Virus record (IMG/VR): IMGVR_UViG_3300025151_000237
Span: 1 to 27,081 of that record
DNA length: 27,081 nt
Strand: one strand, 5' to 3'
Source of the DNA: a virus
The notes under the pieces are model-generated. The model worked only from the letters and a program-made list of their open reading frames with translations. It made no database searches and was not told the DNA's origin. This document shows positions 6,559 through 24,141 of this stretch, piece after piece. Both the position numbers and the translations under genes were made by a program. How positions within the stretch are numbered: position 1 is the stretch's first letter; the number at the start of each line of letters is the position of its first letter.

Positions 6559-6974
6559 TGGCGTACGGTGATGGTGGATCAGGAAGCGGACTAACAAATA
6601 AATCAGTCACGTTCAAAGGTTTCAGTTCTAGAGCCAATAGGCAAAATTTCAAACTGTATGATTTTGAGGTTGCGAAACAGGATTTGATAAACAGGTTAAG
6701 CATTCGTAAAGGAGAAAGGGTCGAAAATCCTGAATTCGGCACCATAATATATGATGCAATATTTGAACCATTTACCGAAGAATTGAAAGATGCCATAGTA
6801 GAAGATGTGACTGCCAACCTAAATGCAGATCCAAGGATATCAACACAAGACATTTTAGTCAGTGAAGCAGACAAAGGAATAGCAATACAGGCCACAATAA
6901 CCTATGTACCACTGAATATCACCGAAAAACTTCGTTTTAATTTCGATGAAAACTCATTATTGCGTCTATCTTAA
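6558..6974 (+). CDS. 25: Baseplate wedge protein gp25 (GPW/gp25 family)
   Basis: A 138-residue protein with the standard gp25 features: a short Gly/Ser-rich N-terminus, DFEVAKQDLINRLSIRKGER, the VENPEFGTIIYD motif near residues 54-66, FEPFTEELKDAIVEDV, and a C-terminal beta sheet ending in a single predicted amphipathic strand. T4 gp25 is 132 residues, so the length is normal. gp25 is part of the wedge core with gp6 and gp53 and lies next to the sheath start. In T4 gene 25 is away from gene 6; here 5-25-6 are contiguous, a common arrangement outside T4 itself. After its stop comes a 42-base gap with a late promoter. Confidence 0.92.
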   Translation: MAYGDGGSGSGLTNKSVTFKGFSSRANRQNFKLYDFEVAKQDLINRLSIRKGERVENPEFGTIIYDAIFEPFTEELKDAIVEDVTANLNADPRISTQDILVSEADKGIAIQATITYVPLNITEKLRFNFDENSLLRLS

Positions 6975-7002: not shown

Positions 7003-7020
7003 CCGTTGTATATACAATGG
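7003..7020. repeat. Palindrome spanning the gp6 start codon
   Basis: Bases 7006-7017, TTGTATATACAA, are a perfect 12-base palindrome; with one G-T position it extends to 18 bases (7003-7020). It covers the expected transcript start and the A of the gp6 ATG. It could be an operator or a start-occluding hairpin, or chance in AT-rich DNA. Confidence 0.6.
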
Positions 7021-10000
7021 CCACAACAGATAGACAAAACAGATTACTAGTAGCAGAAGATTGGAGAAAGATCTATCAGGCTTTTCAGCAGGCTGATTTT
7101 AAGTCCTATGATTTTGAGACGCTACGAAGAACAATGGTGGCATATCTCAAGGAGAACTACCCAGATGATTTCAATGACTTTGTTGAAAGTTCAGAGTACG
7201 TTGCACTTATAGATCTTATTGCGTACATTTCGCAGGCACTTTCATTCAGAGTAGACCTTAACGCTAGGGAAAATTTTCTTGAAACAGCAGAAAGAAGGAA
7301 CTCGGTGTTGCGACTTGCGAGGTTGATCAACTACAATGCCAAAAGAAATCAACCTGCAACGGGATTACTGAAGATAGATTCAATTTCAACAACACAAGAT
7401 GTGCTAGACAGTACAGGCACTAACCTAGCAAATTCCACTATAATTTGGAATGATTCTGCAAACTCAAATTATAGAGAACAGTTTACCGCAGTGCTAAACG
7501 CCGCCAACCAATCAGGACAACTCTTCGGCAAACCGAGGGAGTCGGGTAAGATAGGTGGTATAGACACAGAAGTATACACATTGAGTTCGAACCAATTAGA
7601 CCTACCAATATATGCATTTCAAACAGCAGTTGGAGGCACAAATAGAGCATTCGAAATTGTGCCAAGCACAATCAATGACTCTGATAGCATTTACGAGTCG
7701 GCACCAGTGCCAGGCACAGGACTTACATACGTTTACAGATCAGACGGATCAGGTGACAGTAGCAACAACACAGGATTCTTCTTCCTGTTCAAGCAAGGTA
7801 CAATGCAGAATGAAGAATTCACTGTGAATACATCTATAACAAATTATATACAAAACCTTCCAACGCCAAACATCAACGACACAGATGTTTATCTTTACAA
7901 GTTAGATCAGTTCGGACAGTTGGCAGAGTTATGGACAAAAGTTCCATCGCTATCTGGGAACAATGCCATATACAATTCACTGTCCAAATCAGAAAGAAAC
8001 ACTTACAATGTGGTCACAAAGGCCAATGATACAGTTGACCTTGTGTTCGGTGACGGAAACTTTTCGAACATACCATTGGGAAGTTTTAGAACATATTACA
8101 GGACCAGTGACAACGCCAAGTTCGCTTTACAACCTGCGGACATGCAAGGTATTCAATTATCAGTCCCTTACACAGACGCCAATGGTGCACAACAGACATT
8201 GAGTATTAGCGTGAGCTTGAAGTCAAGTGTTTACAATTCAGCGGCCACGGAATCAAACGACTCCATAAAAGAAAAGGCCGCACAAGTTTATTATTCCCAG
8301 AACAGGATGATAACTGCGGAGGACTATCAAGTTGTGCCATTGTCAGCGTCACAGGAGATAGTAAAAGTTAGATCTGTAAACAGATCTGCATCAGGGATAT
8401 CAAGGGCAAAAGAAATACTTGACCCAACAGGTGCATACTCAAACGTGAGTGTGTTTGCCGACGACGGTATTTTGTACAGAGAAGAATCTTTACAGCAGTT
8501 TACGTTTACATTTAACAATAGAAGCAACATACAGAACACCATTGACACCGATGTAGAATCAAGACTAAAAGAGGCATACGCAAGGCAGTTCTATTACTTC
8601 AAATATGGAACAAAAGATACAAGCACACTTTCAGCAACTTGGAACTCCACCACAACATCGACAAACACCAACACCGGTTATTTCACATCAGGTGGTGCTT
8701 TGGTAATTGGCGATTTTGCAACTTCTAATCTTAAGTTTGCAAAAACCGGAGCATTGATTAAATTTACTTCTCCTGACACAAGGAAGTTTTTGAATGGTTC
8801 GCTAGTCGCGTCCACCACTGATAACTCAGAGGATAGGTTATGGGCAAAGATAGGAGATGTGGTACTTGATGGTGCCAATGGAGGCGTAGGAAACTTGGAA
8901 TCAGGTGCGGGTCCTGTAACTCTTAACAATGTTGTGCCACAAGGCGCAGTTGTAAAAGCAATCATCCCTAACTTCACAACTTCATTCTCAGCAACTTTAG
9001 AAGCAGACTTGATAGACAGAATAGAGGCGTACGAAGAATTTGGCCTAAGATATGATGTTGACTCGGAAACATGGAAAGTGATTACTTCAACAAACCTAAG
9101 CACCAGCACTACCTTTGCACTTAATAATGCAGGATCAACAGCAGGAACAAATGCAGATGCTAGTTGGTGGTTTAAATTTACCAATGATGGAAACACCTAC
9201 ACAGTGCAGTACAGAAGATTGGATTACGTGTTTGAATCAGAATCACAAAACAAATTCCACTACGATCTCCAGGAAAAAATTTATGATTATACCACAGGAA
9301 AAACTGTAAAAGATTCTGTAAAAATTTTGAAAACAAACAACATTGTGTCTACTAGTGCCAGTGTAGGTTACCCATTGCAATGGCAGGTTGTCGATGTGGT
9401 GACAGAAGCAGATGGCTTCCAAGATAATAGGAAAGTTAAAGTCGGATTTTTTGACGATGACGATGACGGTGTGGTAGATAACCCAGAATTATTTGACATC
9501 TATGTTGAACCAACATTGTCAGAGTCAACAAAATTTGTTTTCTTTGAAGAGTACGACTCATACGATAACATCAAAAGATTCAGACCATACGCGGCAACAA
9601 ATTTTGTAGTCACTGAAAACGAATCAGATATAGACCTAAACACGGCAACCTATACAAACAACCAACTGTTTTATTTTTACGCTGAGGATGAGGATGTTAT
9701 CAAGAAATACGATTCGACCACAAATACACTTTCAACAACCACAGAATATATCGCTAGAAGAGGCAGAAGCAATATCAGTTTCCAATACAAACATCATGCA
9801 GGCCAGGAAACAAGAATTGATCCTAGTGTTTCAAACATTGTTGATGTTTATATCTTAGAAAGGACATACGACAATCTATTCAGGATATGGTTGCAAGATG
9901 GTGGCACGAAGCCGAGCGTGTCAACAGCAGACCAATTAAGAATATCTTACTCAGGCACCCTTAACCCTTTGAAATCACTATCGGATCAAATCATTTACCA

Positions 10001-10505
10001 TCCAGTGAAATATAAAATACTATTTGGAAAAAATTCTGCTGAACAGTTACAAGCAACATTTAAAGTTGTAAAAAATTCAAAGACAAATGTTTCAGATGCT
10101 GTCATCAAAACTAGGGTTATTGCCGCTATAAACGAATTTTTTGCTTTAGACAACTGGGATTTTGGTGATACATTTTATTTTACGGAACTAGCCGCATACA
10201 TTCACAATGAACTTGCACCAGACCTTTTGACAGCAGTCATTGTGCCAAATCAATCAGGACAGAGTTTTGGGTCTCTGTTCCAGATCAATTCCGCGGCAGA
10301 CGAAATTTTCATCAGTGGGGCCACCGTTGATGATGTGTCAATAATTACAGCACTTGGAGCCAACCAATTGGTGGCATCAGGGACTGTGGTGACATCAACA
10401 TCATCTACCACTTCTAACACGACGACAGGTTCAGCAGTGTCAGGCTCTACTACATCAGGTTCGGGATCAACATCGAGCACCGGCAGTAGTGGAGCAGGAT
10501 ACTAA
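7017..10505 (+). CDS. 6: Baseplate wedge protein gp6 (J-like), enlarged
   Basis: gp6 forms the dodecameric ring that joins baseplate wedges. The N-terminus has the gp6 signature: DRQNRLLVAEDWRKIYQAF, DFETLRRTMVAYLKENYP, FNDFVESSEYVALIDLIAY, and ARENFLETAERRNSVLRLA (residues 3-105). The C-terminal core is also typical: a KYKILFGKNS-like strand near residue 1000, AVIKTRVIAAINEFFALDNW, FGDTFYFTELAAYIHNE and LFQINSAADEIFISGA (to about 1110). T4 gp6 is 660 residues; the extra length lies mainly between about 540 and 980, and includes an acidic DDDDDGVVDNPELFD loop near 813 that looks like a metal-binding loop. The last 36 residues are almost only Ser, Thr and Gly and end in GAGY. The start is fixed by the conserved N-terminus; a late promoter lies just upstream. 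The stop overlaps the ATG of the giant gene (TACTAATGG), so the two are coupled. Confidence 0.9.
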   Translation: MATTDRQNRLLVAEDWRKIYQAFQQADFKSYDFETLRRTMVAYLKENYPDDFNDFVESSEYVALIDLIAYISQALSFRVDLNARENFLETAERRNSVLRLARLINYNAKRNQPATGLLKIDSISTTQDVLDSTGTNLANSTIIWNDSANSNYREQFTAVLNAANQSGQLFGKPRESGKIGGIDTEVYTLSSNQLDLPIYAFQTAVGGTNRAFEIVPSTINDSDSIYESAPVPGTGLTYVYRSDGSGDSSNNTGFFFLFKQGTMQNEEFTVNTSITNYIQNLPTPNINDTDVYLYKLDQFGQLAELWTKVPSLSGNNAIYNSLSKSERNTYNVVTKANDTVDLVFGDGNFSNIPLGSFRTYYRTSDNAKFALQPADMQGIQLSVPYTDANGAQQTLSISVSLKSSVYNSAATESNDSIKEKAAQVYYSQNRMITAEDYQVVPLSASQEIVKVRSVNRSASGISRAKEILDPTGAYSNVSVFADDGILYREESLQQFTFTFNNRSNIQNTIDTDVESRLKEAYARQFYYFKYGTKDTSTLSATWNSTTTSTNTNTGYFTSGGALVIGDFATSNLKFAKTGALIKFTSPDTRKFLNGSLVASTTDNSEDRLWAKIGDVVLDGANGGVGNLESGAGPVTLNNVVPQGAVVKAIIPNFTTSFSATLEADLIDRIEAYEEFGLRYDVDSETWKVITSTNLSTSTTFALNNAGSTAGTNADASWWFKFTNDGNTYTVQYRRLDYVFESESQNKFHYDLQEKIYDYTTGKTVKDSVKILKTNNIVSTSASVGYPLQWQVVDVVTEADGFQDNRKVKVGFFDDDDDGVVDNPELFDIYVEPTLSESTKFVFFEEYDSYDNIKRFRPYAATNFVVTENESDIDLNTATYTNNQLFYFYAEDEDVIKKYDSTTNTLSTTTEYIARRGRSNISFQYKHHAGQETRIDPSVSNIVDVYILERTYDNLFRIWLQDGGTKPSVSTADQLRISYSGTLNPLKSLSDQIIYHPVKYKILFGKNSAEQLQATFKVVKNSKTNVSDAVIKTRVIAAINEFFALDNWDFGDTFYFTELAAYIHNELAPDLLTAVIVPNQSGQSFGSLFQINSAADEIFISGATVDDVSIITALGANQLVASGTVVTSTSSTTSNTTTGSAVSGSTTSGSGSTSSTGSSGAGY

Positions 10506-10510
10506 TGGCA
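10495..10510 (+). repeat. Stop-start coupling box, copy 1
   Basis: CAGGATACTAATGGCA, which encodes the C-terminal Gly-Tyr of gp6, its TAA stop, and the ATG of the giant gene overlapping by one base. AGGA supplies a ribosome site five bases before the ATG. An identical 16-base copy occurs at 24126-24141. Confidence 0.7.
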
Positions 10511-13500
10511 GACAATCCAACCAACGCACTAACAAATAACGAAGTTGTAAAACAAGGAAGCAACGAGTACAGAAGGACTGTGCAACATCTACCAGCGTTC
10601 TATAGGACAGATACCAATCAGCGGTTCTTATCCAGCACTTTGGACGCTTTGGTTCAAAAAGGAAATCTTGAAAGGCTGGATGGTTACATAGGTAGGCAAG
10701 ATGCTTACACTAGAGCTGTCACTGACAGATACCTTCCGGCGACTAGCAGAGATAGATTTGCATATCAATTAGAACCTATTGTCACCTACACAGACAAGGA
10801 TACCACATCGGTCAATCCAGAAGATCAAGTAAAGTTTACAGGAAGTTACGATGATTACATAAACCAAATAAAATATTTTGGTGCAAAAACAAACAATCAT
10901 GACCGGTTAAACAAGCAAACAATTTACAGTTGGAACCCTGCTATTGATTACGATAAACTAATCAATTACAGAGAATATTACTGGATGCCAAATGGTCCAG
11001 GATCTTTAGAAATCGATTCAGTAGGCCCTTCGGCGGTTATAGAATACAGTGTGTCAAATCTCGCCAAAGGTGCATACAATTTTACCCATAGGGAAAATGA
11101 AAATAATCCAATACTTACGCTGTATAGAGGTAACACATACAAATTTGATGTGAATGCAAAGGGTCATCCTTTCTGGATCATGACAGAACCTTATAAGGCG
11201 AAGGTGGCCGCTGATGGATCCACGTCTACTATTTTCAGCACTGGAGTTACAAATAATGGAGCAGATTATGGCACGGTTACATTTACCGTACCCACATCAG
11301 GTGCGCCTGACACTTTATATTATCAATGTGGAAATCATGATGCCATGTATGGAATACTACAAATCAAAGATATATCAAGCACGACAGCGATCAATGTTGA
11401 AGATGACATTGTAGGAGCAAAGAATTACAGTCTTAGGACGCTTGATTTGTCTAATGGAATGAAGGTGAAATTTCCTACTAGTCTGGTTGCCTCGGATTAT
11501 CAAAACAAAGAATATTATGTTGAAGGGGTTGGAGAAGCAATTACTTTGACGGATGTTGAAGATCTCATAACGCCTGGAAGTTATGCTACCGAAACCACTA
11601 TATTATACGATCAAGTCGCCTACGATACAAGGCCTTATGCAAAGTCTTATTACACGCCCGATAAGAAAGATTACATAACAATCAAAAGAGATTCACAGGA
11701 CAGAAATGCTTGGTCGAGATATAATCGATGGTTCCATAGGTCTGTCATCGAAGAGACTGCAAAGATAAATGGACACACGCCAGTGCTCGCCGAAGATGAC
11801 AGGGCGAAGAGACCTATTATCGAATTTGATTCTGGACTAGCACTTTACAATCATGGAACAGTGGCAAAGAAATCAGTAACCCTATATGATACTGTTACTA
11901 CAGATGCTTTCAGTAATGTGGTCAAACAAACTGGATACATCGTTGATGGACTTGCTCTCGCAGACGGAATGCGTGTTGTCTTTGCCGCAGATACAGACCC
12001 GATCGTAAAAAATAAGATATATGATGTCAACTTTGTCACAGCAGGGGATTCTACACAGGTTATAAATTTGACAGAGGCATCTGACGCCAGCCCAAGCAAT
12101 GATGATTCAATATTCATTGAATTTGGAACGGCTAATCAAGGTAAAACTTTCCGATATGATTCGACCACAGAATCATTTGTAGAGGCTCAAGAAAAAGAAG
12201 ATGTCAATCAGGAACCATTGTTTGCAATGTTTGATGAGTCGCACGTTTCATTTGATGACGCAACGACTTATCCAAATTCAACTTTCAGCGGTGCCAAAGT
12301 GTTCTCATTTGCCACGTCTGATTCAGCAACCACTGACACGGTTCTTGGCATGAAGGTCAAGTATAAAACTATTAACAACGTAGGAGACATTGTCTTTGAA
12401 TCAGATCAAACTTCGGGTTCATTCACTTACAAAAGTGGTAACACAACGGTCACTAAAAAATTAGCAGAAGGGCATTTGCATTATACTACAAGTAGGGCTA
12501 CCCACAATTCAAAGACGTCTTGGATAAAAAGACCTTTAGAAAGCAAACAGCGTGTGATAAGAACATTTGTTGTTGACGAAACAGAAAAAAAATTATTTCC
12601 TATAGATTTTTACAAAGATTCCGCAGAACTTACAGATCTCGAAGTTTCGGTTGTTGTCAACGGCACTAGGAAGACTCTGGGCGTGGATTATACTCTTGAA
12701 AATGGAACTAAAAACAAATTTGTTAAATTCTCCAAGGATCTCACAGTAGATGACCAGGTAAGGATAGCAGGATATAGTAGCGCCGACAAAATCGAAACTA
12801 AAGGAATATACGAAATACCTGAAAATCTATCAACAAATAGCCTCAATGTGCAGTTAGGTACGTTTACGTTTGGACAAATTCTAAATCATGTGAGAGACAT
12901 ATTTGATAAAAATCAAGACCTTACAGGATCAATACCTGGTGTATCTAACCTCAGGGACAAACCAGATGCAAGACTGAAAGGTGGTAGCATACATCAACAC
13001 GAAGGATCTTTGTTGCCTGCAATATTTAATTTGATAGATCAAGATGCCAATTTTGTTACAGCGGTGGATTATGTTTCTAAGGAATATGAAAAATGGTACA
13101 ATTCATTTTTGACCCATGCCACGGGCACAGCATATGAAGGCATTGCCACAGACCGGGTGGACGAAATCATTACGTCTATCACAACAGGTAGAAACAGTTC
13201 GTTTCCTTTCTATTATGAAGACATGTTAGGCTGGGGAGAAAATGTTTCCACTAGATCATATACAGTTATGGGATCATCTCAGACCGATTACGCTCTCGAT
13301 TCACAGTACAGCACAACAGAATTAAGCAACAGAGCGGTTTACGTTTACCTAAATGATGTGCAATTAATACTAGGCACTGATTACACTTTTAGCACAGCAG
13401 ATGACTCAGTGAACATCACGAAGTCTTTGGTGGAAGGAGATAAAATTGTAATCAAAGATTACGCTGACACAACAGGAAGTTACATGCCACCGTCTCCCAC

Positions 13501-16500
13501 TAAACTTGGAATGTATCCTAAGTATACGCCAGAAAAGTTTACAGACACAACTTATATCACTGACACCGAAGTGATTAGAAGGCATGATGGTTCAATAATA
13601 AAAGCATACGGAGACGAACGTGATGACTTGATCTTAGAACTTGAAAAAAGGATCTACAATAATATTAAAGTAAGTTACGATTCTGATTTGATAAAATTGA
13701 ATGATGTAATGCCTAGTGTTTTTTACTCCACAGATTATTCTTTATCGGAAATAGATGCTGTTATGGGGCCAGATTTTTATCAGTGGGCAGGTAGGAATAA
13801 TGTGCAGTATATCAATAATACTAGTTTCAGCGAAGGTTCTCCATTCACGTACAATTATGCAGGTAGCACAGACAGGATTACAGGTGCAAAATTACCTGGA
13901 TATTGGAGAGGCATTTACAAATATTTTTATGACACAGATGCGCCTCACGTGAGACCATGGGAGATGTTCGGTCATTCTGAAAAACCAACAGACTGGGAGG
14001 ACACGTACGGGGCCGCTCCATACACTTCGGGCAATGATGTCTTATGGAACGCCATAGCCTCTGAGCCAGGAAGACAAGGGAAGCCTGATATAAGCAGTTA
14101 TCTACCAGTAGATGCATCGGGAAATTTATTAGATCCACTTGCGGCTGGATTGGTGAATAACTTTGATATTCCAGGAAGACAGAGTGGTTGGAAGTTTGGT
14201 GACCAAGCACCGGCCGAAACTGCATGGAGAAGGTCTAGTGCATATCCATTTACAGTAATTAAAACACTGGCGCTGACAAAACCAGCAAAATTCTTTTCAA
14301 ACTTTTTTGATCCATCAAGGTTGTCAACAAATGTGTCTGGGAATCAAATATCAACGGACACAGGTGTAAGAATGACGCTTGAAAATGCGAAATATCACTT
14401 GGAAACTGAAACAAATACCGCAACTGGGGTCACTACAAGATATCAAACAGCAGGATATCAACCTTTAATCATTAATCATCTAGTCTCTAAAAATCTTGAT
14501 AGCAAAACTTTTTATTATGACAAAATGAAAAATCTTTCAGTGCAGTTAGGTTACAAATTAGGAGGATTTACAGATAAAGACAACATAAAAGTTTTGACAG
14601 ACAGCGTGTCACCAGGATCAACATCAGGATCTAAATTTATTCCTGATGAAAACTATAAGATATTATTCAGAACTTCTAATCCAGTAGAAAGTTTTTATTA
14701 CTCAGGTGTGCTGATAGAGAAGAACACAGATACCACTACAAAGACTGATGGGTCAACGGTTACAAATGTGGGCGGGTTCAAGGTGCTAGGATATAGCACA
14801 GTTAAGCCATATTTCAACTTCAACTATCCTGTAAAGACATCAACAGAAACAGCAGTTCAAGTAGGTGGTTCAACAGCAGTTAAACGGTATTCTGCCTTTC
14901 AAGAGACAACACAAACTATTCCATACGGTTATGTTTTAGACACAATACAAGATGTTGCTGACTTTTTGTTTGGCTACGGACATTGGCTCGAAAGTCAAGG
15001 ATTCCGTTTCAATAAATTTTCAAAAGAATTGAAAGAAACACTAAATTGGCAAAATGCTGTACAAGAATTTTTATTTTGGACCACGCAGGAGTGGGCTCCA
15101 GGATCAGCAGTGACAGTTTCTCCAGCCGCTGACGGTTTTGAATTAGACACTAACAACAGCATAGTTGGAAAACTGAGAAACCTAGCAGGTGATTATTCAA
15201 TATTAGATGCAGGCGGCCGGAAAATAGACATTAGAGAGTTATCAACAAAAAGAATAGGTAAGACATTTGAACTAGGAATCAAGTCAGACTCGGTTGGCCT
15301 ATACAACATAGCACTCAACACAGTCCAGAAAGAACACCTACTGTTATTTGATAACACTACTGTTTTTTCAGACATAATTTATGAACCAAGTACAGGTTTC
15401 AGGCAACAAAGGTTAAAGTTGGTTGGTTGGAAGACCGGAGGCTGGAATGGAGATTATTACGCACCAGGTTTTGTTTTCGACGCGGCCCAAGTCACACAAT
15501 GGATTGCAAATACAGATTACAAGATAGGCGATAGCATTGAATACCAAGGCAAGTTTTATGTTGCCAAAATTAATCATAATTCGGGTGCTAAATTTATAAC
15601 AGAAAACTGGAAATTAAAAAATAATAAACCACTGCCACAATTAATACCAAACTTCGATTACAAAATATCACAGTTTAACGATTTTTATAACTTGGAGACA
15701 AATAATTTTGATGAGTCGCAACAACAATTGGCTCAGAGATTGATAGGTTACCAGTCTAGAGATTATCTTGAAAATCTTTTCGTAAACGACGTATCACAAT
15801 ATAAATTTTATCAAGGGTATATTAGAGAGAAAGGAACTCAAAACGCAATAGACAAAATATTGAAAGCCAAGTATGAGGGCGAAGACATATCTCTTGATTT
15901 ATATCCAGAATGGATGATTAGGACAGGAAATTTTGGAAACATGGACTCTGTGGAGAATGTTCAAATTATTTTGAAAGATAATGAAATTAAAGCAAATCCA
16001 CAAAGCATAGAATTGACAGATGTATTATCGGATACAGTCGAGTATCCAAGGTCACAGGCAGTAGATAAGTCCGAACTATACTACGCACCAGTTGAATACA
16101 CCGCATCTACTACATTCAAGAAAGTTGATTACAGTAAGGCAGGGTTTGATAGAGAAAATACACAGGTTTTTAAAACTGCTGGTTATCCACAACTTCAACA
16201 AGTTCAACACACGGCATTTGACATAGAAGACATTTTAAATCTTGACATGAACCGGATCACTGCTAATGATTTAATATGGGTGGCAAATAAGAGTAACAGA
16301 GATTGGGACGTGTTTAGGTTAACAAACAGTGGAATAAAAATTGCAGATCTGACACTTATAAATGACGGCACACAGTTACAGGTCACATTTACAGGTTCGC
16401 ATAATCTATCAGCAGGTTCAACAACCACGGAAGCAGATTTCTTTGGCATCTCAAACAGTGAGGAATCAACACTTAATGGAGTGTACCAGGTAGTTGCAGT

Positions 16501-19500
16501 GCCTGACCATAAAACAGTCACAATAGATTTTGACGGCAACACGGCATTCATACCAACTCTTGCAGATGGCTCAACTGCAGACAGTTTCGGAAACGTGTAT
16601 AAATTTGTTTCTGTAAGACTGTCATCAATGGATAACGTAAATGATCTGTTGAACCATGACGATTATGTTGACAAGAATGATGCCATAGAACACCCGGGTG
16701 ATAAAGTTTTTGCTGATAGCGACAGTTCAGGTTTATGGCGAGTGTACGAGAAACAGGATCCATACACCAGCCGAATACGACTTTCTCCTGACAGCACGAC
16801 TGCAAATCAAAATTTTGGATTCAGGATCGTTGCAAGGAACGACGGAAGGACAGTGATAGCATCCGCTCCAGGAAAAGGACAAGGTGAGGTACACTTCCTG
16901 TTTAGATCACAAGCAACAGCAGGAGACGAGCTACTTGCACAGTCGGTTGGCACAATGACGGACAATGACGACAACACCAGCAGGCTAGGTGAATCATTGT
17001 CGATGAGTACAGACGAGAACTTTGTTGTTGCTGGAGCACCGTTTACTAACACAATCGGGGCAGACGGAAGCACGAGACAATTGAACGCTGGCTTGATAAA
17101 AGTCTATCTTTGGGATCCATCAACATTCAAATACGGATTGCTTAACACATTGAATCCCCCAACAGATGGCTCGTCGGCCAACGAAAACTTAAATTTTGGA
17201 TTTGCTCATAAAATATCTGAGCCTACTTTAGCATCAACTAGAACCACTGGTCAGAAATACTTGTTCGTATCGGCTCCTGGACATGACAGCAACACTGGAA
17301 GAGTGTATTTTTATACTTGGGGAATAGGAGCAGATGGTTCTACATACGACACATGGACACAGGACTACACAATTGAAGCACCAGATGGAGGATCAGGACA
17401 ACGTTTCGGACACAGACTCACAGCGAATGACAATGGTGATATTCTTGCTGTTAGTTCTCAAGCACCTGGCAATGCAGGAAAAGTTGAAATATTTGTAAGG
17501 ACAGGCGCAAGTAATGATGGAAGCACCAAAAATGCCTTTACATTGGTTCAGACTATAACAGGAGTTGCAAGTGATGGATCATCCCTAAACACTGCTTTTG
17601 GAGAGTCCTTGGCAATGAGCAAGGATGGAACAACACTGATCATAGGTGCGCCAGGAGTTGATGGTACAGATAATCCAGATTCAGGTGCAGTCTACTATTA
17701 CAAATGGAACGCTGATGGTTCTACAAACACATACACATTACAACAGACTATAAGTGCTCCAAGCACTAGCACCAACATGAAATTTGGAACTAGTCTGGAC
17801 ATCAACAACGACGGAACAAGGCTTGTGATGGGAGCAGAAAAATTTGCCAATCCTAGAGAAATGAAGTTTGACTTGGGTGAAACAACTTTTGATCTACAGG
17901 ACACTTCAATAGTAGATAGTAACACCGAATCAGGTGGAGCATTCACGGCCACTATGTATAATTCAAAATTTGTGGTAGATGATACACTGATATCAGACAA
18001 TGTATCCTCAAATGATGATTTTGGACGTGGGGTGTGCATAATAGACAACTCAGTTTTTGTTGGTGCACCGGAAGACGACGGAAACACTGCATCTGATGGT
18101 AGCACAAAAATAGAGAATGATGGCACTGTGGCATGTTATGACCTTACCGTAAATGGACAATATTCATGGAAAAATATAGTGACAGAAACTGCATTGATAG
18201 ACACTGACAAATTAGGCAAAGTATTTGATTTCAGCAGAAGTTCCAAACAGATTAGAGGATTTTATGATCTCTACGATCCTGTAAAAGGAAGAATATTAGG
18301 TGTGGCTGACAGGGAGATACACATCAAAACAACTTGGGATCCTGCGGTGTACAATGTTGGAACAAAGTCAAACACTCAAACTCCATGGGCTGAAAACCAC
18401 ATTGGCGAAGTGTGGTGGGATCTTTCCACGGTCAAGTGGCTTTGGTATGAACAAGACACACAAGAGTATAAAGTAAACACCTGGGGTAAAACTTTTCCTG
18501 GGTCAAACATAGATGTATATGAATGGGTAGAATCAAGGTTACTCCCTAGTGAATGGAACTCCAGATCAGGCACGCAACAAGGAGCGTCAGAAGGCATATC
18601 AGGTACAGCACTATATGGCGACAACTCCAATTACACAGAGATCAAAAGATACGATTCGAAGGTAGACCAATTTGTTTCTACATATTACTATTGGGTAAAA
18701 AACAAAGCAACACTTCCAGCAAACAGTGTCAAGGACAGGAAAAACACTGTGGCTTTCGTGGCCAACTTGATTAGAAATCCTGGTCAGTTTGATGTGCAAT
18801 ATTACTCTGTGACAGATACGAATAAGTTCATTGTAAACAACGTTAAAGGTCTGGTAAACAGCGACATCGTATTGAATATGGACATACGTAACAACACCTT
18901 TGAGGGTGACGCTCATAGTGTTTGGAAATTGGTCAGAGAGGGTGACAAAGATTTCAAACCAACAGCACAGATAGAATCTCGTTGGTGGGATTCTCTGATA
19001 GGTAAAACTTCAGCAGGTGATATTGTGCCAGACACATCTCTGCCTGTAAATGAAAGATACGGCAACAGACTTAGACCGAGGCAAAGTTGGTATGTTGACA
19101 GATATAGTGCCTTGAAAGAAATCATTGATTACGCAAACAGCGTATTGAAGAAAAATCAACTAGTTGGACAAATCAATCTAACAAATCTAGATTCGAAAGA
19201 TCCAGAACCTACGGCACAAAGTCTGGAATGGGACGCATCAGTAGACACTTATGCTGAATTGACATACGTGAATACAGCCGATCTTTCAGGTACAGTAAAC
19301 TATCTTGTGAAAGCAGATGAAACGGCTAATAACTATTGGGCTATCTATCAATGGGCCGGAACAGAATGGTCTAGAACAAAGTTACAGACATATAATACTT
19401 CTGCATATTGGAGTTATACTGATTGGTATAAAACCGATGGCAGTATGGTTCATGACGAAAATACTCCTGTGGACAAACAGGTAAAATTCGAATACGAATT

Positions 19501-22500
19501 GGATACCTTAGATATTGCAATAGGAAAACATGTGAAAGTTACAAATGCTGACACAGGTGGATGGAAGTTATTCATGAAAACTGCAACAGGTTTTGAAAAC
19601 ATCGGCACTGAGAATGGCACTATTAGATTATCAACAAAACTTTATGACTATTCGCAAGACGCTACAGGTTTTGCCGGTGAAGACACATTTGATGATAACT
19701 TTTTTGATCAAGAACCAAGCACCGAGACAAGGAAAGTTCTTACAGCGTTACGAGATGATCTATTCATAAATGATCTCGCAATAGAGTACAACACCTTGTT
19801 CTTCACAGGTCTTAGAAAAGTCCTTTCGGAACAGACTTATGTGGACTGGATGTTTAAAACATCTTTCATCAATGCCAAAAATAGTGTTAGGCAACTAGAT
19901 CAAAGAAAAACATATACTACAGGTACGGATTCGTGGATTGAAAGTTATATTAATGAGGTCAAACCTTTTCATACCAAACTGCGTGAATATAGACTAGGTT
20001 ACGATAAGACCGAAACGCAGGACGGTATATTCTCGGATTTTGATAATCCAACTTTTTATGATGCATCGACAGGCAAGATTAGAAGTCTAAATGTTGATTT
20101 AGACACAGCCAAGTTGACAGAATATCCCCATCAGATGTGGTATGACTATCATAAAAAATATGTTAAATCAATAACAATAACAGCAGGCGGATCTGGTTAT
20201 GAAGTTGCCCCATCGGTTACAATACTGGGAGGCACAGTCGGCTCTACAGGGCCTTTCCAGATACAGGCAACAAGTTCATCTGGTGCAACAAGTGGACAGT
20301 TTGGATATTATTATCCTCTGTTTACAAGTCAGAAACAGGCTGAAATATATGACTCACAAAACAGTGGATCGGGCACAACCAAATCCTACACTTTTGATGG
20401 ATATGCGGGGAACTTCTATGGGCCAAGTGCTTCAACAAGTGAGGCTCAATCTAACAAATCAGGATCGTTCAAAATGTATGTCACTCCAGCATCAACTGGT
20501 GCGACTGCAACTGCCATAATACAAAATGGTGCGGTGACAAAAATAAATGTGACAAGTGTAGGTGCTAATTACACCGCAACACCTACTGTGGTTTTAACAG
20601 GCGGAAAGACCGACGGGACAACACCCACTGACACTGCCAAAGCATATGCAAATTTAGAAAACGATTTAGTAAGAGATTTTGATACCACTATCAAATTTGA
20701 CAGGGTGTCAAGCACTTCTCGTGTGGTTGACTGGGCGGCATCTACAAGTTACGCATACAATGATTTGTTAAGATATAAAAACCAATTGTACAAAGTCACA
20801 AACGCCTTTACATCATCTACAGATTTTGATGACAACATAGGCAAGGTGTACAAGGTCTATGGCAACGAGACAGGACTTACAGCCGCGGACAGGACCAAAG
20901 GTTTCTACACTCCAGGTGCAGGTATGCCAGGTAACGAACTAGATCAGGTAATGACTGGTGTTGACTATGGTGGCACTATGGTAACTGGCCTGTTGTTTAC
21001 TCAAGAAGCAGGTTGGGACAAGGCTGGATGGTATGATTTTCCATGGGATAATTATGGTGGGTCTAGGATAAAGGCTTTTAGGGCGGATGGATCCACAGCG
21101 GTATATACTTTTGACACTGCGCCTGCAACAACAGATGTATTTCAAGTCTATATCACACATGGCGACAGCACTAGGAGAAAACTTTCAGATGTCATAAGAG
21201 GTGATGGTTCCACAACGGCATTTACAATTAGTGAAACTGCAGACTCAAATGCCTTAGTTGAATTCATTCCTTTCGATGATGATGGTGTTTTAACACCTAC
21301 GGATGATAGGACACTGGATTCTATAATCAAAGGTGGATTGTTTACATCGGCCTTAGGACACGCTCCAAGCGATATTGTTTTAGAAGGAGACGCTTTTGTT
21401 TCTCCGGATACAAGTTATGCTCCTGAGGAGGTGTTGCCTGGACAATTATTTGACACAGTCGACATCAAAGTTTACACTTCACCTGAATCTGGAGTGCCGT
21501 TCATTAGTGAATTAAATTATTTGGGAGACGGCACAACTACTACTTTTGCAATAGGTGATTTTCCAGGAACTTTAGGATCAGTGACAGTGGCGGTGGACGG
21601 CGTTGTTCAAAAAGGAAGTGCGTTAGATTCAACAATTTCCGATTACACAATTGACGTGGCTAATAAACAAATAGTGTTTGACACTGCACCTGCCAACCAC
21701 AGTGTGATCTCAACCAAAGTCTTTGCTATTTCTGGAGAAAATTATAGAGTCTTAAACACATTCACAGGAGATGGATCTACAAGGGCGTTTTTGACTAGCA
21801 CAAGGGGAGAATTCAATTTAGATTCAACTACATCAGACATCTATGTCACAGTTGACGGAGTACCAACAAATGCTTACGTGACATCTACATTGGCAAACAC
21901 AATTACTGTTACTTTCAATACGGCTCCTGCCGCAAACACTTTCATACAGATAGCCGGATTCAACAAATCAACAACATCCACAAGAAGTTTTGCCAGTGTA
22001 AGGAACGAAGCAATAACATATGATGGATCAACAAATAGATATAGTTTGACATATCCTGCTGGATCCATAGGACCGTTTTCAGGACTTACCATAGTTGAAG
22101 TCAACGGCAGAGTGTTGAGAGGACCAGACAACACTTATTATGTAGGTGACGGTAGTACATACACCTATGGCGTAGTGTCAGGACTAGGCGACGACTCAAC
22201 AGTAGACCCTGCTAAAACTATTTCTTCAGCGTCACAGGTTGAAGTTTTTGTCAATGGCATTAAGAAAAATTTAAACACGGACTACACAGTTGATATTAGT
22301 AATCAAAATGTAAATTTTGTTACATCAGCAGTGCCTTCCGCAACAGATGTTATCTCCATATCGACACTGGTAGATAATCAATATTTTGTGGACGGCGGAG
22401 CCGATGCGGACTTGGTGTTGGTTCCAGGCGCAATCACCAGTCCATACTCGCTATCGTCTGGAGACAAAATTTCAGTAACAACTTTCAACAATGCACTAGG

Positions 22501-23401
22501 CATGAAGCAGAGAAGAGAAGTTCTTGAAGGAAGACCGAGCGGTATATTCAAGTTAAGATTTGACACTTTGAATGCTGGATACACTTTTGTTTGGTTGAAC
22601 GGTGAACAATTAGTACAGGGAAGTGATTACACGGTGAGTGGAAGCACAATAACAGTAAACGGAAAAACAATAACATCTTCGGACAGGTTAGATGTCATGT
22701 ATTTTGCTGTTGACTCGGCAGTCAGTGCCACAGGTTTTAGGATATTCAAAGACATGCTTAATAGAACATTCTACAAGAGGATAAGCAAGACAGCCACTAC
22801 AAAATTAGTTGAAGACATGACCGAGGGAACATCTACTATAACAGTTGCAAATGGAACGGTGTTAAGCGAGCCAAACATTACGGCAAACGTTCCAGGAGTT
22901 GTGTTTGTTGACAAAGAAAGAATTGAATATTTTACTAAAGCAGGTAACACGTTAGGACAACTAAGACGTGGTACACTGGGAACAGGAATTAAGGAGCATG
23001 GATCAGGCACTGAAGTGGTAGATGCGTCTGGTACTCAAACCATCCCTTATGCGGACACAGTGCATACCAACACTTTCACAGGTGACGGTAGCACAGTTGT
23101 GTTTGCACTATCACAAGCACCATCCAACGCTAGTGAGTTAGACATATTCATTGGTGGCCAACGATTGTTGCTCACTAGCGAGGATGGATCAACAATAAAT
23201 TACTCTGTTGACGGAAGCACTACTGCGGTGACATTAAGCACTGCTCCTGCTTCAGGAACGCAGGTCAAAATATTACACAAGAAAGGACAGGTCTGGTACA
23301 CAGCGAAAGATGGTAATCCTGCGGATGGCCAAGGATTACAGGCTTCAACCACACAACAGGCTAAATTCATTGCTAATGAGCCTACAAACGCACCTGAATA
23401 A
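10505..23401 (+). CDS. Giant modular baseplate/fibre protein (4298 residues) at the gp7 position
   Basis: One uninterrupted frame of 4298 codons, about half the window. Modules in order: an N-terminal domain with LPAFYRTDTNQRFLSSTLDA and LERLDGYIGR (29-65); a cupredoxin-like domain (about 188-289); two isolated beta repeats with NGxxxxxGxDYT (about 683-762 and 916-989); a chitin-binding-like module (1666-1706); a stretch reminiscent of T4 gp7 (about 1710-1811); a seven-bladed FG-GAP-like propeller (about 2100-2545); a Trp-rich part (WWDLSTVKWLWYEQ, about 2640-3100); Gly-rich GSGY repeats (3222-3367); a second chitin-binding-like module (3410-3446); and a C-terminal array of GDGST repeats (3525-4262). 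No signal peptide or membrane segment. It follows gp6 with stop-start overlap, where T4 has gene 7 (1032 residues), so it is probably a wedge or peripheral baseplate protein expanded into a host-contact structure. No break or frameshift is visible. The gene is certain; its exact role is inferred. Confidence 0.85.
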   Translation: MADNPTNALTNNEVVKQGSNEYRRTVQHLPAFYRTDTNQRFLSSTLDALVQKGNLERLDGYIGRQDAYTRAVTDRYLPATSRDRFAYQLEPIVTYTDKDTTSVNPEDQVKFTGSYDDYINQIKYFGAKTNNHDRLNKQTIYSWNPAIDYDKLINYREYYWMPNGPGSLEIDSVGPSAVIEYSVSNLAKGAYNFTHRENENNPILTLYRGNTYKFDVNAKGHPFWIMTEPYKAKVAADGSTSTIFSTGVTNNGADYGTVTFTVPTSGAPDTLYYQCGNHDAMYGILQIKDISSTTAINVEDDIVGAKNYSLRTLDLSNGMKVKFPTSLVASDYQNKEYYVEGVGEAITLTDVEDLITPGSYATETTILYDQVAYDTRPYAKSYYTPDKKDYITIKRDSQDRNAWSRYNRWFHRSVIEETAKINGHTPVLAEDDRAKRPIIEFDSGLALYNHGTVAKKSVTLYDTVTTDAFSNVVKQTGYIVDGLALADGMRVVFAADTDPIVKNKIYDVNFVTAGDSTQVINLTEASDASPSNDDSIFIEFGTANQGKTFRYDSTTESFVEAQEKEDVNQEPLFAMFDESHVSFDDATTYPNSTFSGAKVFSFATSDSATTDTVLGMKVKYKTINNVGDIVFESDQTSGSFTYKSGNTTVTKKLAEGHLHYTTSRATHNSKTSWIKRPLESKQRVIRTFVVDETEKKLFPIDFYKDSAELTDLEVSVVVNGTRKTLGVDYTLENGTKNKFVKFSKDLTVDDQVRIAGYSSADKIETKGIYEIPENLSTNSLNVQLGTFTFGQILNHVRDIFDKNQDLTGSIPGVSNLRDKPDARLKGGSIHQHEGSLLPAIFNLIDQDANFVTAVDYVSKEYEKWYNSFLTHATGTAYEGIATDRVDEIITSITTGRNSSFPFYYEDMLGWGENVSTRSYTVMGSSQTDYALDSQYSTTELSNRAVYVYLNDVQLILGTDYTFSTADDSVNITKSLVEGDKIVIKDYADTTGSYMPPSPTKLGMYPKYTPEKFTDTTYITDTEVIRRHDGSIIKAYGDERDDLILELEKRIYNNIKVSYDSDLIKLNDVMPSVFYSTDYSLSEIDAVMGPDFYQWAGRNNVQYINNTSFSEGSPFTYNYAGSTDRITGAKLPGYWRGIYKYFYDTDAPHVRPWEMFGHSEKPTDWEDTYGAAPYTSGNDVLWNAIASEPGRQGKPDISSYLPVDASGNLLDPLAAGLVNNFDIPGRQSGWKFGDQAPAETAWRRSSAYPFTVIKTLALTKPAKFFSNFFDPSRLSTNVSGNQISTDTGVRMTLENAKYHLETETNTATGVTTRYQTAGYQPLIINHLVSKNLDSKTFYYDKMKNLSVQLGYKLGGFTDKDNIKVLTDSVSPGSTSGSKFIPDENYKILFRTSNPVESFYYSGVLIEKNTDTTTKTDGSTVTNVGGFKVLGYSTVKPYFNFNYPVKTSTETAVQVGGSTAVKRYSAFQETTQTIPYGYVLDTIQDVADFLFGYGHWLESQGFRFNKFSKELKETLNWQNAVQEFLFWTTQEWAPGSAVTVSPAADGFELDTNNSIVGKLRNLAGDYSILDAGGRKIDIRELSTKRIGKTFELGIKSDSVGLYNIALNTVQKEHLLLFDNTTVFSDIIYEPSTGFRQQRLKLVGWKTGGWNGDYYAPGFVFDAAQVTQWIANTDYKIGDSIEYQGKFYVAKINHNSGAKFITENWKLKNNKPLPQLIPNFDYKISQFNDFYNLETNNFDESQQQLAQRLIGYQSRDYLENLFVNDVSQYKFYQGYIREKGTQNAIDKILKAKYEGEDISLDLYPEWMIRTGNFGNMDSVENVQIILKDNEIKANPQSIELTDVLSDTVEYPRSQAVDKSELYYAPVEYTASTTFKKVDYSKAGFDRENTQVFKTAGYPQLQQVQHTAFDIEDILNLDMNRITANDLIWVANKSNRDWDVFRLTNSGIKIADLTLINDGTQLQVTFTGSHNLSAGSTTTEADFFGISNSEESTLNGVYQVVAVPDHKTVTIDFDGNTAFIPTLADGSTADSFGNVYKFVSVRLSSMDNVNDLLNHDDYVDKNDAIEHPGDKVFADSDSSGLWRVYEKQDPYTSRIRLSPDSTTANQNFGFRIVARNDGRTVIASAPGKGQGEVHFLFRSQATAGDELLAQSVGTMTDNDDNTSRLGESLSMSTDENFVVAGAPFTNTIGADGSTRQLNAGLIKVYLWDPSTFKYGLLNTLNPPTDGSSANENLNFGFAHKISEPTLASTRTTGQKYLFVSAPGHDSNTGRVYFYTWGIGADGSTYDTWTQDYTIEAPDGGSGQRFGHRLTANDNGDILAVSSQAPGNAGKVEIFVRTGASNDGSTKNAFTLVQTITGVASDGSSLNTAFGESLAMSKDGTTLIIGAPGVDGTDNPDSGAVYYYKWNADGSTNTYTLQQTISAPSTSTNMKFGTSLDINNDGTRLVMGAEKFANPREMKFDLGETTFDLQDTSIVDSNTESGGAFTATMYNSKFVVDDTLISDNVSSNDDFGRGVCIIDNSVFVGAPEDDGNTASDGSTKIENDGTVACYDLTVNGQYSWKNIVTETALIDTDKLGKVFDFSRSSKQIRGFYDLYDPVKGRILGVADREIHIKTTWDPAVYNVGTKSNTQTPWAENHIGEVWWDLSTVKWLWYEQDTQEYKVNTWGKTFPGSNIDVYEWVESRLLPSEWNSRSGTQQGASEGISGTALYGDNSNYTEIKRYDSKVDQFVSTYYYWVKNKATLPANSVKDRKNTVAFVANLIRNPGQFDVQYYSVTDTNKFIVNNVKGLVNSDIVLNMDIRNNTFEGDAHSVWKLVREGDKDFKPTAQIESRWWDSLIGKTSAGDIVPDTSLPVNERYGNRLRPRQSWYVDRYSALKEIIDYANSVLKKNQLVGQINLTNLDSKDPEPTAQSLEWDASVDTYAELTYVNTADLSGTVNYLVKADETANNYWAIYQWAGTEWSRTKLQTYNTSAYWSYTDWYKTDGSMVHDENTPVDKQVKFEYELDTLDIAIGKHVKVTNADTGGWKLFMKTATGFENIGTENGTIRLSTKLYDYSQDATGFAGEDTFDDNFFDQEPSTETRKVLTALRDDLFINDLAIEYNTLFFTGLRKVLSEQTYVDWMFKTSFINAKNSVRQLDQRKTYTTGTDSWIESYINEVKPFHTKLREYRLGYDKTETQDGIFSDFDNPTFYDASTGKIRSLNVDLDTAKLTEYPHQMWYDYHKKYVKSITITAGGSGYEVAPSVTILGGTVGSTGPFQIQATSSSGATSGQFGYYYPLFTSQKQAEIYDSQNSGSGTTKSYTFDGYAGNFYGPSASTSEAQSNKSGSFKMYVTPASTGATATAIIQNGAVTKINVTSVGANYTATPTVVLTGGKTDGTTPTDTAKAYANLENDLVRDFDTTIKFDRVSSTSRVVDWAASTSYAYNDLLRYKNQLYKVTNAFTSSTDFDDNIGKVYKVYGNETGLTAADRTKGFYTPGAGMPGNELDQVMTGVDYGGTMVTGLLFTQEAGWDKAGWYDFPWDNYGGSRIKAFRADGSTAVYTFDTAPATTDVFQVYITHGDSTRRKLSDVIRGDGSTTAFTISETADSNALVEFIPFDDDGVLTPTDDRTLDSIIKGGLFTSALGHAPSDIVLEGDAFVSPDTSYAPEEVLPGQLFDTVDIKVYTSPESGVPFISELNYLGDGTTTTFAIGDFPGTLGSVTVAVDGVVQKGSALDSTISDYTIDVANKQIVFDTAPANHSVISTKVFAISGENYRVLNTFTGDGSTRAFLTSTRGEFNLDSTTSDIYVTVDGVPTNAYVTSTLANTITVTFNTAPAANTFIQIAGFNKSTTSTRSFASVRNEAITYDGSTNRYSLTYPAGSIGPFSGLTIVEVNGRVLRGPDNTYYVGDGSTYTYGVVSGLGDDSTVDPAKTISSASQVEVFVNGIKKNLNTDYTVDISNQNVNFVTSAVPSATDVISISTLVDNQYFVDGGADADLVLVPGAITSPYSLSSGDKISVTTFNNALGMKQRREVLEGRPSGIFKLRFDTLNAGYTFVWLNGEQLVQGSDYTVSGSTITVNGKTITSSDRLDVMYFAVDSAVSATGFRIFKDMLNRTFYKRISKTATTKLVEDMTEGTSTITVANGTVLSEPNITANVPGVVFVDKERIEYFTKAGNTLGQLRRGTLGTGIKEHGSGTEVVDASGTQTIPYADTVHTNTFTGDGSTVVFALSQAPSNASELDIFIGGQRLLLTSEDGSTINYSVDGSTTAVTLSTAPASGTQVKILHKKGQVWYTAKDGNPADGQGLQASTTQQAKFIANEPTNAPE
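11066..11370 (+). other. Cupredoxin-like domain with complete type 1 copper ligand set
   Basis: Residues about 188-289 of the giant protein. The pattern LYRGNTYKFDVNAKGHPFWI, a central TVTFTVP strand and LYYQCGNHDAMYGILQI is that of a cupredoxin. The four ligands of a type 1 copper site are present: His221 in GHPF, Cys275, His278 and Met281 in CGNHDAM. The Cys-x2-His-x2-Met spacing equals that of amicyanin. Similar CxxHxxM segments occur in other marine phage structural proteins, by my recollection. Metal binding itself is inferred. Confidence 0.75.
15500..15625 (+). other. Chitin-binding (CBM5/12)-like module 1
   Basis: Residues 1666-1706 of the giant protein: W-x3-TDYKIGDSIEYQGKFYVAK, a spacer, then ENWKL. 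The order Trp, Tyr-x-x-Gly-Asp, Tyr-x-Gly-x-x-Tyr, Trp is that of small CBM5/12 modules, which bind chitin or related glycans through exposed aromatics. It is short, and such modules also serve as plain structural inserts in phage fibres. Confidence 0.55.
15631..15935 (+). other. Gp7-like segment of the giant protein
   Basis: Residues about 1710-1811. The segment LIPNFDYKISQFNDFY, RDYLENLF, then YKFYQGYIREKGTQNAIDKI and ISLDLYPEWMIR resembles, from memory, the C-terminal half of T4 gp7 (an aromatic-Phe-Tyr, Lys-Gly, helix pattern before a strand). It matches the gene position after gp6. Support is moderate because it is a by-eye comparison. Confidence 0.4.
16800..18140 (+). other. Seven-bladed FG-GAP-type beta-propeller
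   Basis: Residues about 2100-2545 of the giant protein. Seven repeats each start with an FG-like motif: F2104 (FGFRIV), L2161 (LGESLS), F2231 (FGFAHK), F2301 (FGHRLT), F2365 (FGESLA), F2427 (FGTSLD) and F2506 (FGRGVC), spaced 57-79 residues apart. Most continue with a DG-type turn, a hydrophobic strand and (I/V)GAP, as in IIGAPG and VVAGAP. Seven units is the normal number for an integrin-alpha-like propeller. The last gap is longer and holds an extra insert. Confidence 0.82.
20168..20606 (+). other. Two Gly-rich GSGY-type repeats
   Basis: Residues 3222-3244 (ITITAGGSGYEVAPSVTILG) and 3347-3367 (INVTSVGANYTATPTVVLTG) are two copies of a beta repeat with a Gly/Asn-Tyr turn and a Pro-x-Val strand. 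Such repeats are frequent in phage tail proteins. They flank a Ser/Gly-rich stretch. Confidence 0.65.
20732..20842 (+). other. Chitin-binding (CBM5/12)-like module 2
   Basis: Residues 3410-3446 of the giant protein: WAASTSYAYNDLLRYKNQLYK followed by an acidic-Ser stretch. It shares the Trp, Tyr-x3-Asp, Tyr-x-x-x-Leu-Tyr pattern with module 1 but the closing Trp is not evident, so it is the weaker of the two. Confidence 0.45.
21076..23290 (+). other. C-terminal array of GDGST beta repeats
   Basis: Residues about 3525-4262 of the giant protein. Repeats have the form GDGSTxxFxL, a loop, VxVDGVxQ, xDYTxD, a strand, and (T/S)APA with a final strand. GDGST-like starts are at about 21084, 21200, 21529 (GDGT), 21768, 22020, 22145 and 23083. 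A tail-protein segment ERIEYFTKAGNTLGQL...RGTLGTG lies within it near residue 4140. Two further single units with NGxxxxxGxDYT occur far upstream (about 12552-12790 and 13250-13470). Confidence 0.75.
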
Positions 23402-23410: not shown

Positions 23411-24136
23411 ATGACACAGGACAATAAACCAATAGAATCAAAAGAAGAGAATAAGAAGCCTCAAGATAATACAGGTGTTATGATGACAGGGCACATCAAA
23501 ATTTTCGATCCAGAAACAGGCGAAGTGATCGTTGATAAAAGAAACGCTATACACTATGAAAACATGTCTCAGGCACTTGCCAATTCATTGGCGAATAAAT
23601 CAACAGGATTTGTCCACGAGATGGCTTTTGGAAACGGTGGTACTTCAGTAGACCCAACTGGCATAATCACATATTTGACACCAAATTCAACAGGCACAAA
23701 TGCCACATTGTACAACCAAACATATTACAAAGTTATAGATGATAACTCTGCAACGAACAAAGACACCACACGAAACAAAATGGAAATTAGACACACCGCT
23801 GGCAACAAGTACACTGATATAGTGTGCACCTGCACTTTGGACTATGGAGAGCCAACAGGACAAGCGGCCTTTGACAACACAACAAACTTCAATGGTGATT
23901 TCGTGTTTGATGAACTAGGATTAAAAAGTTGGGAAGGCACAGAGAACGGATCAACAAACAAATTGCTCACACACGTTATTTTTCACCCTGTACAAAAATC
24001 TTTGAACAGGTTAATACAAATAGATTATACACTTAGAATACAAAGTTTAACCACTTTCACCGAAACAAGTTCAACTGCATTGTCTACTTCAAACACTGTA
24101 AGTGGAACTACTTCAGGTGGTAACACAGGATACTAA
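23411..24136 (+). CDS. Conserved marine T4-like phage structural protein, function unknown
   Basis: A 241-residue protein. Its first 20 residues are charged and Pro/Lys-rich. Residues about 22-90 (VMMTGHIKIFDPETGEVIVD, NAIHYENMSQALANSLANK, MAFGNGGTSVDPTGIITYL) are a pattern that I recall from virion proteins of marine T4-like phages next to tail-fibre genes, with no known function. The middle is beta-rich, with FDELGLKSW near residue 175, and the tail of about 20 residues is mostly Ser, Thr and Gly and ends in NTGY, like the tail of gp6. A plausible role is a fibre-attachment or baseplate-periphery protein. It starts nine bases after the giant gene with no Shine-Dalgarno sequence, and its stop overlaps the next start. 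Confidence 0.75.
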   Translation: MTQDNKPIESKEENKKPQDNTGVMMTGHIKIFDPETGEVIVDKRNAIHYENMSQALANSLANKSTGFVHEMAFGNGGTSVDPTGIITYLTPNSTGTNATLYNQTYYKVIDDNSATNKDTTRNKMEIRHTAGNKYTDIVCTCTLDYGEPTGQAAFDNTTNFNGDFVFDELGLKSWEGTENGSTNKLLTHVIFHPVQKSLNRLIQIDYTLRIQSLTTFTETSSTALSTSNTVSGTTSGGNTGY

Positions 24137-24141
24137 TGGCA
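24126..24141 (+). repeat. Stop-start coupling box, copy 2
   Basis: CAGGATACTAATGGCA, identical to 10495-10510. It encodes a terminal Gly-Tyr, the stop, and the overlapping ATG of the next fibre gene, with AGGA as ribosome site. Confidence 0.7.

Follow-up and report, generated by a model that had tools for sequence, protein, structure and literature searches.

In the window analysed here, a linear IMG/VR fragment of 27,081 bases, a single open reading frame of 12.9 kb lies among genes for T4-type baseplate components, which raises the question of what a 4298-residue protein does at this position. A sequence-only reading had proposed a baseplate protein extended into a large host-sensing device, combining a gp7-like stretch with an electron-transfer-type fold, a propeller, glycan-binding-like modules and repeat arrays. 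The giant gene and its neighbours are:

1551–1850, + strand: small baseplate wedge subunit, gp53-type by position (phrog_7145)
4114–6558, + strand: gp5-type hub with lysozyme (phrog_13211)
6558–6974, + strand: gp25-type baseplate wedge subunit (phrog_261, phrog_43)
7017–10505, + strand: gp6-type baseplate wedge subunit, 1162 aa (phrog_10646, E 3e-288)
10505–23401, + strand: giant virion protein gene of the phrog_10938 family, ATG start, 4298 aa
23411–24136, + strand: 241-aa protein, very conserved (phrog_11259)
24136–25632, + strand: 498-aa protein with T4 gp10 C-terminal domain (hhalign 97.6%, p 4e-12)
25643–27076, + strand: 477-aa mosaic fibre-like protein (PHROG profile and identities among relatives)

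The gene order of the window is thus gp53, gp5-lysozyme, gp25, gp6, giant, the 241-aa protein, gp10-like and fibre-like, and the giant's first base doubles as the final base of the gp6-type gene (one-base overlap). The gp6-type protein aligned with T4 gp6 (hhalign probability 68%, p 4.7e-5), and the gp10 C-terminal domain of the 498-aa protein was also recovered by hmmsearch (6e-15). The gp25–gp6–giant order recurs in Cassandra, Phosso, 121Q, CBB, phAPEC6, RaK2 and K64-1, and the gp6–giant order in Atu_ph07 and the Vibrio phage; indeed, the giant directly follows gp6 in every annotated relative examined. This synteny agrees with the baseplate position that had been proposed. Among the neighbours, the 241-aa protein is 89–96% identical in relatives, exceeding gp6 and gp25 there. 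A 749-aa virion protein (1852–4101), encoded between the gp53-type and gp5-type genes, has a median identity of 30% and is a candidate for rapid evolution beside very conserved wedge genes.

The giant falls in phrog_10938, a family already known from jumbo phages but uncharacterised, whose 3324-position profile (labelled 'virion structural protein') matched the whole protein in five stretches in a PHROG profile search (E=0, 1155.8 bits). We set aside the PHROG label 'head and packaging', which is a default category. Family members include 121Q gp582, phAPEC6 gp245, CBB_236, RaK2 ORF070w, the PA5oct group and Atu_ph07 gp180. They share with the giant the slot after gp6, a single giant gene and two conserved cores (A and B, below) at ∼25–35% identity, whereas the isolate proteins differ in length (3323–4555 aa) and FG-GAP was not found in them by Pfam scan. 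We identified phAPEC6 gp245 and CBB_236 as orthologues of the giant from their gene records. Both are reported from virions by mass spectrometry in the available sections of the respective papers (phAPEC6 gp245: 381.88 kDa, 17 unique peptides, 7.6% coverage, PMC7247149; CBB_236: 21 peptides, 7.72%, PMC5259590), and those sections give no function for the orthologue. Detection of these orthologues in particles supports a virion location for relatives of the giant, as the sequence-only reading had expected. The main text of the RaK2 paper makes no mention of ORF070w, and the annotation of phage EJP2 labels its orthologue a D-alanyl-D-alanine carboxypeptidase. Searches of the giant against the PDB by phmmer and hmmsearch returned no match, and NCBIfam gave no useful match.

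Within the giant, we distinguished the following regions:

10505–16144, + strand: conserved core A, aa 1–1880, common to all jumbo-phage orthologues, inserts aside
15497–15592, + strand: CBM5/12 (chitin-binding type 3-like) module 1, aa 1665–1696 (Pfam PF02839)
16865–18244, boundaries approximate, + strand: FG-GAP beta-propeller region, ∼aa 2121–2580 (Pfam PF14312)
18272–20194, + strand: conserved core B, aa 2590–3230, holding EVKPFHTKLR (alignment of relatives)
20165–20722, + strand: glycine-rich GxGYxxxP repeats, ∼aa 3221–3406, also present in the S-ShM2 giant
20723–20839, + strand: probable second CBM5/12 module, ∼aa 3407–3445 (second Pfam stretch; position read off the sequence)
21062–23329, + strand: C-terminal beta modules with GDGSTxxF starts, ∼aa 3520–4275 (sequence repeats)

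Alignment with eight jumbo phages showed conserved stretches at ∼aa 1–200, 330–1880 and 2590–3230, with inserts between them and a diverged C-terminal quarter. AlphaFold models of aa 1–720 and aa 1000–1900 each reached a pLDDT of 80. In agreement with the proposed propeller and glycan-binding-like modules, Pfam matches exceeded the curated cut-offs for FG-GAP_2 (4e-14, 52.9 bits against 23, two stretches) and for CBM5/12 (1.6e-9, 38.1 bits against 26.2, two stretches); CBM5/12 module 1 matched chitin-binding domains in Foldseek with probability 1.0, yet with E of 0.11–0.15. None of the eight isolate orthologues aligns across the module at aa 1665, an insert by comparison with them; five of the eight have a CBM5/12 somewhere. 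The propeller region was unaligned or very diverged in most of the eight, and a Pfam scan of nine giants found FG-GAP in one (the window protein only) and CBM5/12 in six. Among wider metagenomic relatives, models of the clade's cupredoxin (described below) and CBM each matched most giants, and the propeller model matched 65/65 close and 15/57 distant giants. The repeat arrays of the earlier reading hold at the protein level (GxGYxxxP repeats and DGSTxxF beta modules); at the DNA level, no tandem repeats were found.

We consider it reasonably probable that the giant is an oversized baseplate wedge scaffold that stands in for gp7/gp8 and is decorated with binding modules. The phage would be a marine, T4-related jumbo-type phage in which the giant takes the place of T4 gp7, and probably of gp8 too, a proposal made because of its position and because complete relatives carry no other recognisable gp7/gp8. 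Cores aa 1–1880 and 2590–3230 would probably build a wedge arm against gp6 and gp25, and this arm probably extends outwards, towards the gp10-like protein and the fibre of the adjacent genes. The lineage appears to have added further domains, some inserted in these cores and some following them: a propeller, beta-repeat modules, two CBM5/12 modules and a cupredoxin whose putative type-1 copper site is intact. Their probable role is to bulk out the periphery and to contact glycan or partner subunits with low specificity. We infer this wedge role together with the contacts and copy number of the giant.

The closest competitor to a wedge scaffold standing in for gp7/gp8 is that the giant is a true T4 gp7 homologue, unrecognisably diverged, with a core split by insertions and running from the N-terminus to a KGT helix segment:

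15806–15904, + strand: KGT helix segment, aa 1768–1800, resembling the T4 gp7 KGT segment (aligned by eye)

The T4 gp7 gene follows gp6, as the giant does in the window, and the KGT segment of the giant (FYQGYIREKGTQNAIDKILKAKYEGE) resembles that of T4 (FYSTKGIEASYKFLFKVLYNEE), the stretch near aa 1776 being the best of ∼56 windows against gp7 KGT; however, its p of ∼0.02 is uncorrected for the number of windows. The giant is four times longer than T4 gp7, the baseplate wedge initiator; sequence homology between the two was undetectable, and the tested parts gave no match in fold. Profile–profile comparison with six gp7 sequences by hhalign gave a best whole-piece probability of 3.3%, compared with controls of 68% for gp6 against gp6 and 97.6% for the gp10-like neighbour. 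As the gp6 control reached only 68%, remote wedge homology lies near the limit of this method. A PDB profile search with the giant returned no gp7, and gp7 was absent among the best 50 Foldseek matches listed for aa 1–720 and aa 1000–1900; the latter region matched small chitin-binding domains and otherwise only its own family (BFVD). Weak hhalign matches (27%) linked the giant to the repeats of T4 gp10, the real gp10-like gene being 24136–25632.

T4-family profiles found no gp7 and no credible gp8 in eight complete giant-carrying genomes (the controls, T4 and K571, were found), an absence that concerns detectable homology in these eight relatives only, the window genome itself being a fragment. 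Six IMG/VR contigs searched for gp7 gave no match, a result that carries no weight either way. In cyanophage S-ShM2, the KGT segment of the gp7 profile falls inside a 6198-aa protein encoded after gp6 (E 2e-5), which counts for the wedge scaffold standing in for gp7 and also for descent from gp7, as that giant matches the same gp7 segment. Like the window giant, this protein (ORF 093) is a giant structural protein directly after gp6 with GxGYxxxP repeats; unlike it, its core is not recognisably homologous, its gp7 KGT segment is clearer and it is without DGST (see below). In the S-ShM2 record (L175:11319-29915), where this structural ORF directly follows gp6, a separate gene further on is the one annotated as gp7 (573 aa). 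Of the gp7-like stretch proposed earlier, the gene slot and the short KGT motif stand, and neither homology (by hhalign and PDB profile) nor a gp7 fold was detected in the tested regions. The giant probably replaces gp7; common descent is possible, at chances that we place somewhat below even.

A second alternative to the wedge scaffold is that the giant serves primarily in host recognition, its CBM5/12 modules, propeller and repeats binding host glycans and setting host range. CBM5/12 and FG-GAP modules are indeed present, and in Foldseek a small CBM5/12-like domain also hits phage 7-7-1 fibres and the receptor-binding portion of the Milano baseplate, albeit with E >0.2. However, these modules are conserved, being 73–82% identical across the close clade without hypervariability or swapping, whereas the fibre-like protein (25643–27076) drops to 35–41% identity or partial matches and the gp10-like protein (24136–25632) is partly mosaic. 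Segments of the giant have median identities of 73–84% among close relatives, nearly those of gp6 (85%) and gp25 (89%). At the sequence level, this variation is that of a scaffold beside a variable fibre rather than of a host-range determinant, the mosaicism of 25643–27076 being what a receptor-binding fibre would be expected to show, and we judge a primary role in host recognition distinctly unlikely. The proposed host-sensing device is thus weakly supported, by the presence of the glycan-binding modules and the propeller, and is opposed by their near-gp6 conservation. Glycan binding by CBM5/12 is possible, CBM5/12 and the propeller leave room for host contact, and conservation alone is possibly compatible with binding of a conserved ligand.

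The 12.9-kb gene is real, as had been read from the sequence. Internal stops are absent from 10505–23401, and its length is far beyond chance. Although megablast against phage records gave no match, a search with the first 1000 residues of the giant identified 224 IMG/VR contigs that encode a close relative, and the 21 complete single-frame relatives are each ∼4270–4330 aa. Compared with three relatives, third codon positions differ by 48–60% and second positions by 7–20% in all nine segments of the giant, demonstrating protein-level constraint on every segment. The orthologue is a single gene in Cassandra (3857 aa), Phosso (4555), 121Q (3323) and SCTP-2 (3807), and likewise in CBB, phAPEC6, Atu_ph07, a Vibrio phage and RaK2. 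That the frame is an assembly artefact or a fusion of separate genes is vanishingly improbable, and an artefact is ruled out by independent assemblies: breaks are confined to four isolated records (L021, L030, K64-1 RefSeq and SD-1_S14), whereas the frame is unbroken over the available sequence (to the gene or contig end) in 78 of the best 80 of the 224 relatives, as in many isolates. The broken records look like local errors because RaK2, sister of K64-1, has the whole gene, and we judged the fragmentation in K64-1 RefSeq and SD-1_S14 to reflect local frame breaks or gene-calling and no genuine split. In K64-1 RefSeq (L177), the annotation replaces the first part of the giant with numerous tiny ORFs lying on both strands.

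A short motif, DGST, is strongly enriched in the giant, with 16 copies against 0.25 expected from composition; shuffled sequences gave ≤5 copies of any tetrapeptide. The relaxed form DG[ST][ST] occurs 21 times (1.0 expected), at sites spanning 11213–23221 of the window. The copies are encoded by differing codons. Part of them lie in repeated modules (propeller loops and C-terminal GDGSTxxF units) and are therefore non-independent; others fall within the cupredoxin and at 1415, 2021 and 2531. DGST columns are 94–97% conserved, compared with 60–75% just outside. The motif occurs at 3.06 per 1000 aa in clade giants, compared with 0.07 in the shorter ORFs that these loci encode; several of those ORFs are pieces of a giant. 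DGST is rare in neighbouring proteins and in distant homologues of the giant. It could reflect a preferred beta turn, or serve in modification or docking; our literature search found no paper joining DGST and phage.

The electron-transfer-type fold of the sequence-only reading proved to be a cupredoxin, as given by AlphaFold and Foldseek:

11036–11368, + strand: cupredoxin domain, aa 178–288 (Foldseek and phrog_677 profile)
11165–11167, + strand: H221, putative type-1 copper ligand, invariant in 21 complete relatives
11327–11347, + strand: C275-x2-H278-x2-M281, putative type-1 copper ligands, invariant in 21 complete relatives

The model of aa 1–720 (51-sequence alignment, mean pLDDT 80) has a pLDDT of ∼90 over most of the cupredoxin, which matched rusticyanin, plastocyanin and pseudoazurin in Foldseek (E from 1.5e-5, probability 1.0). 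As phmmer of the cupredoxin alone against the PDB gave chance matches only, the fold claim rests on the model. Amicyanin has the ligand pattern H + C-x2-H-x2-M, and the giant's domain resembles rusticyanin, plastocyanin and amicyanin in fold and in this pattern. H221, C275, H278 and M281 fit an apparently complete, putative type-1 copper site; the whole giant has only three cysteines, C275 among them. The ligand set HCHM is kept in 101 aligned related ORFs, with Met replacing the first His in one. Type-1 cupredoxins are soluble electron carriers, whereas this domain, with its putative copper site, is part of a virion protein.

The cupredoxin region also matched the C-terminal part of phrog_677 (E 4e-18), the gp9-type baseplate wedge tail fibre connector of cyanophages, which ends in a cupredoxin module with the same four ligands; this connector is a small protein with only the cupredoxin module in common with the giant. 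The module is present in 322 phage records, nearly all cyanophages, and all four ligands occur in the four cyanophages examined (Bellamy, S-ShM2 gp9, P-SSM2 and the podovirus P-SCSP2). In six of the eight jumbo-phage orthologues, most of the cupredoxin region does not align. Distant giants keep the domain (E ∼1e-5 to 1e-19) and have mostly lost the Cys, second His and Met; cupredoxins without copper ligands are seen, for example, in L166 and L147 (module around aa 186–300; also L069, L099 and other loci). Their sequences suggest that the metal site was lost or gained, and these giants offer a natural contrast between a metal site and the mere fold. We infer that the site in the giant may be metal-loaded. 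It is tempting but rather unlikely that, beyond a structural relic, a copper-loaded baseplate cupredoxin is used in infection by the marine clade and many cyanophages, for example as a cell-surface redox sensor or metal bait.

Few proteins of its phages exceed the giant in size, and marine viral metagenomes contain it in abundance, on hundreds of contigs. New in this analysis are the copper-site module and the DGST motif: the giant carries an apparently complete cupredoxin common to marine cyanophage baseplate and tail proteins, and our literature search found no paper joining cupredoxin, phage and baseplate. Related precedents are iron in phage tail fibres (PMC11705849) and the disulfide-locked baseplate of phage Milano (PMC10811340). 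The giant marks a rebuilding of the T4-type baseplate in jumbo phages, in which one protein occupies the slot and gp7/gp8 are unrecognisable. The putative copper site, which cyanomyoviruses share with cyanopodoviruses and which more distant giants have lost while retaining the domain, places a possible metal centre in a baseplate module and raises the question of metal or redox chemistry at phage attachment.
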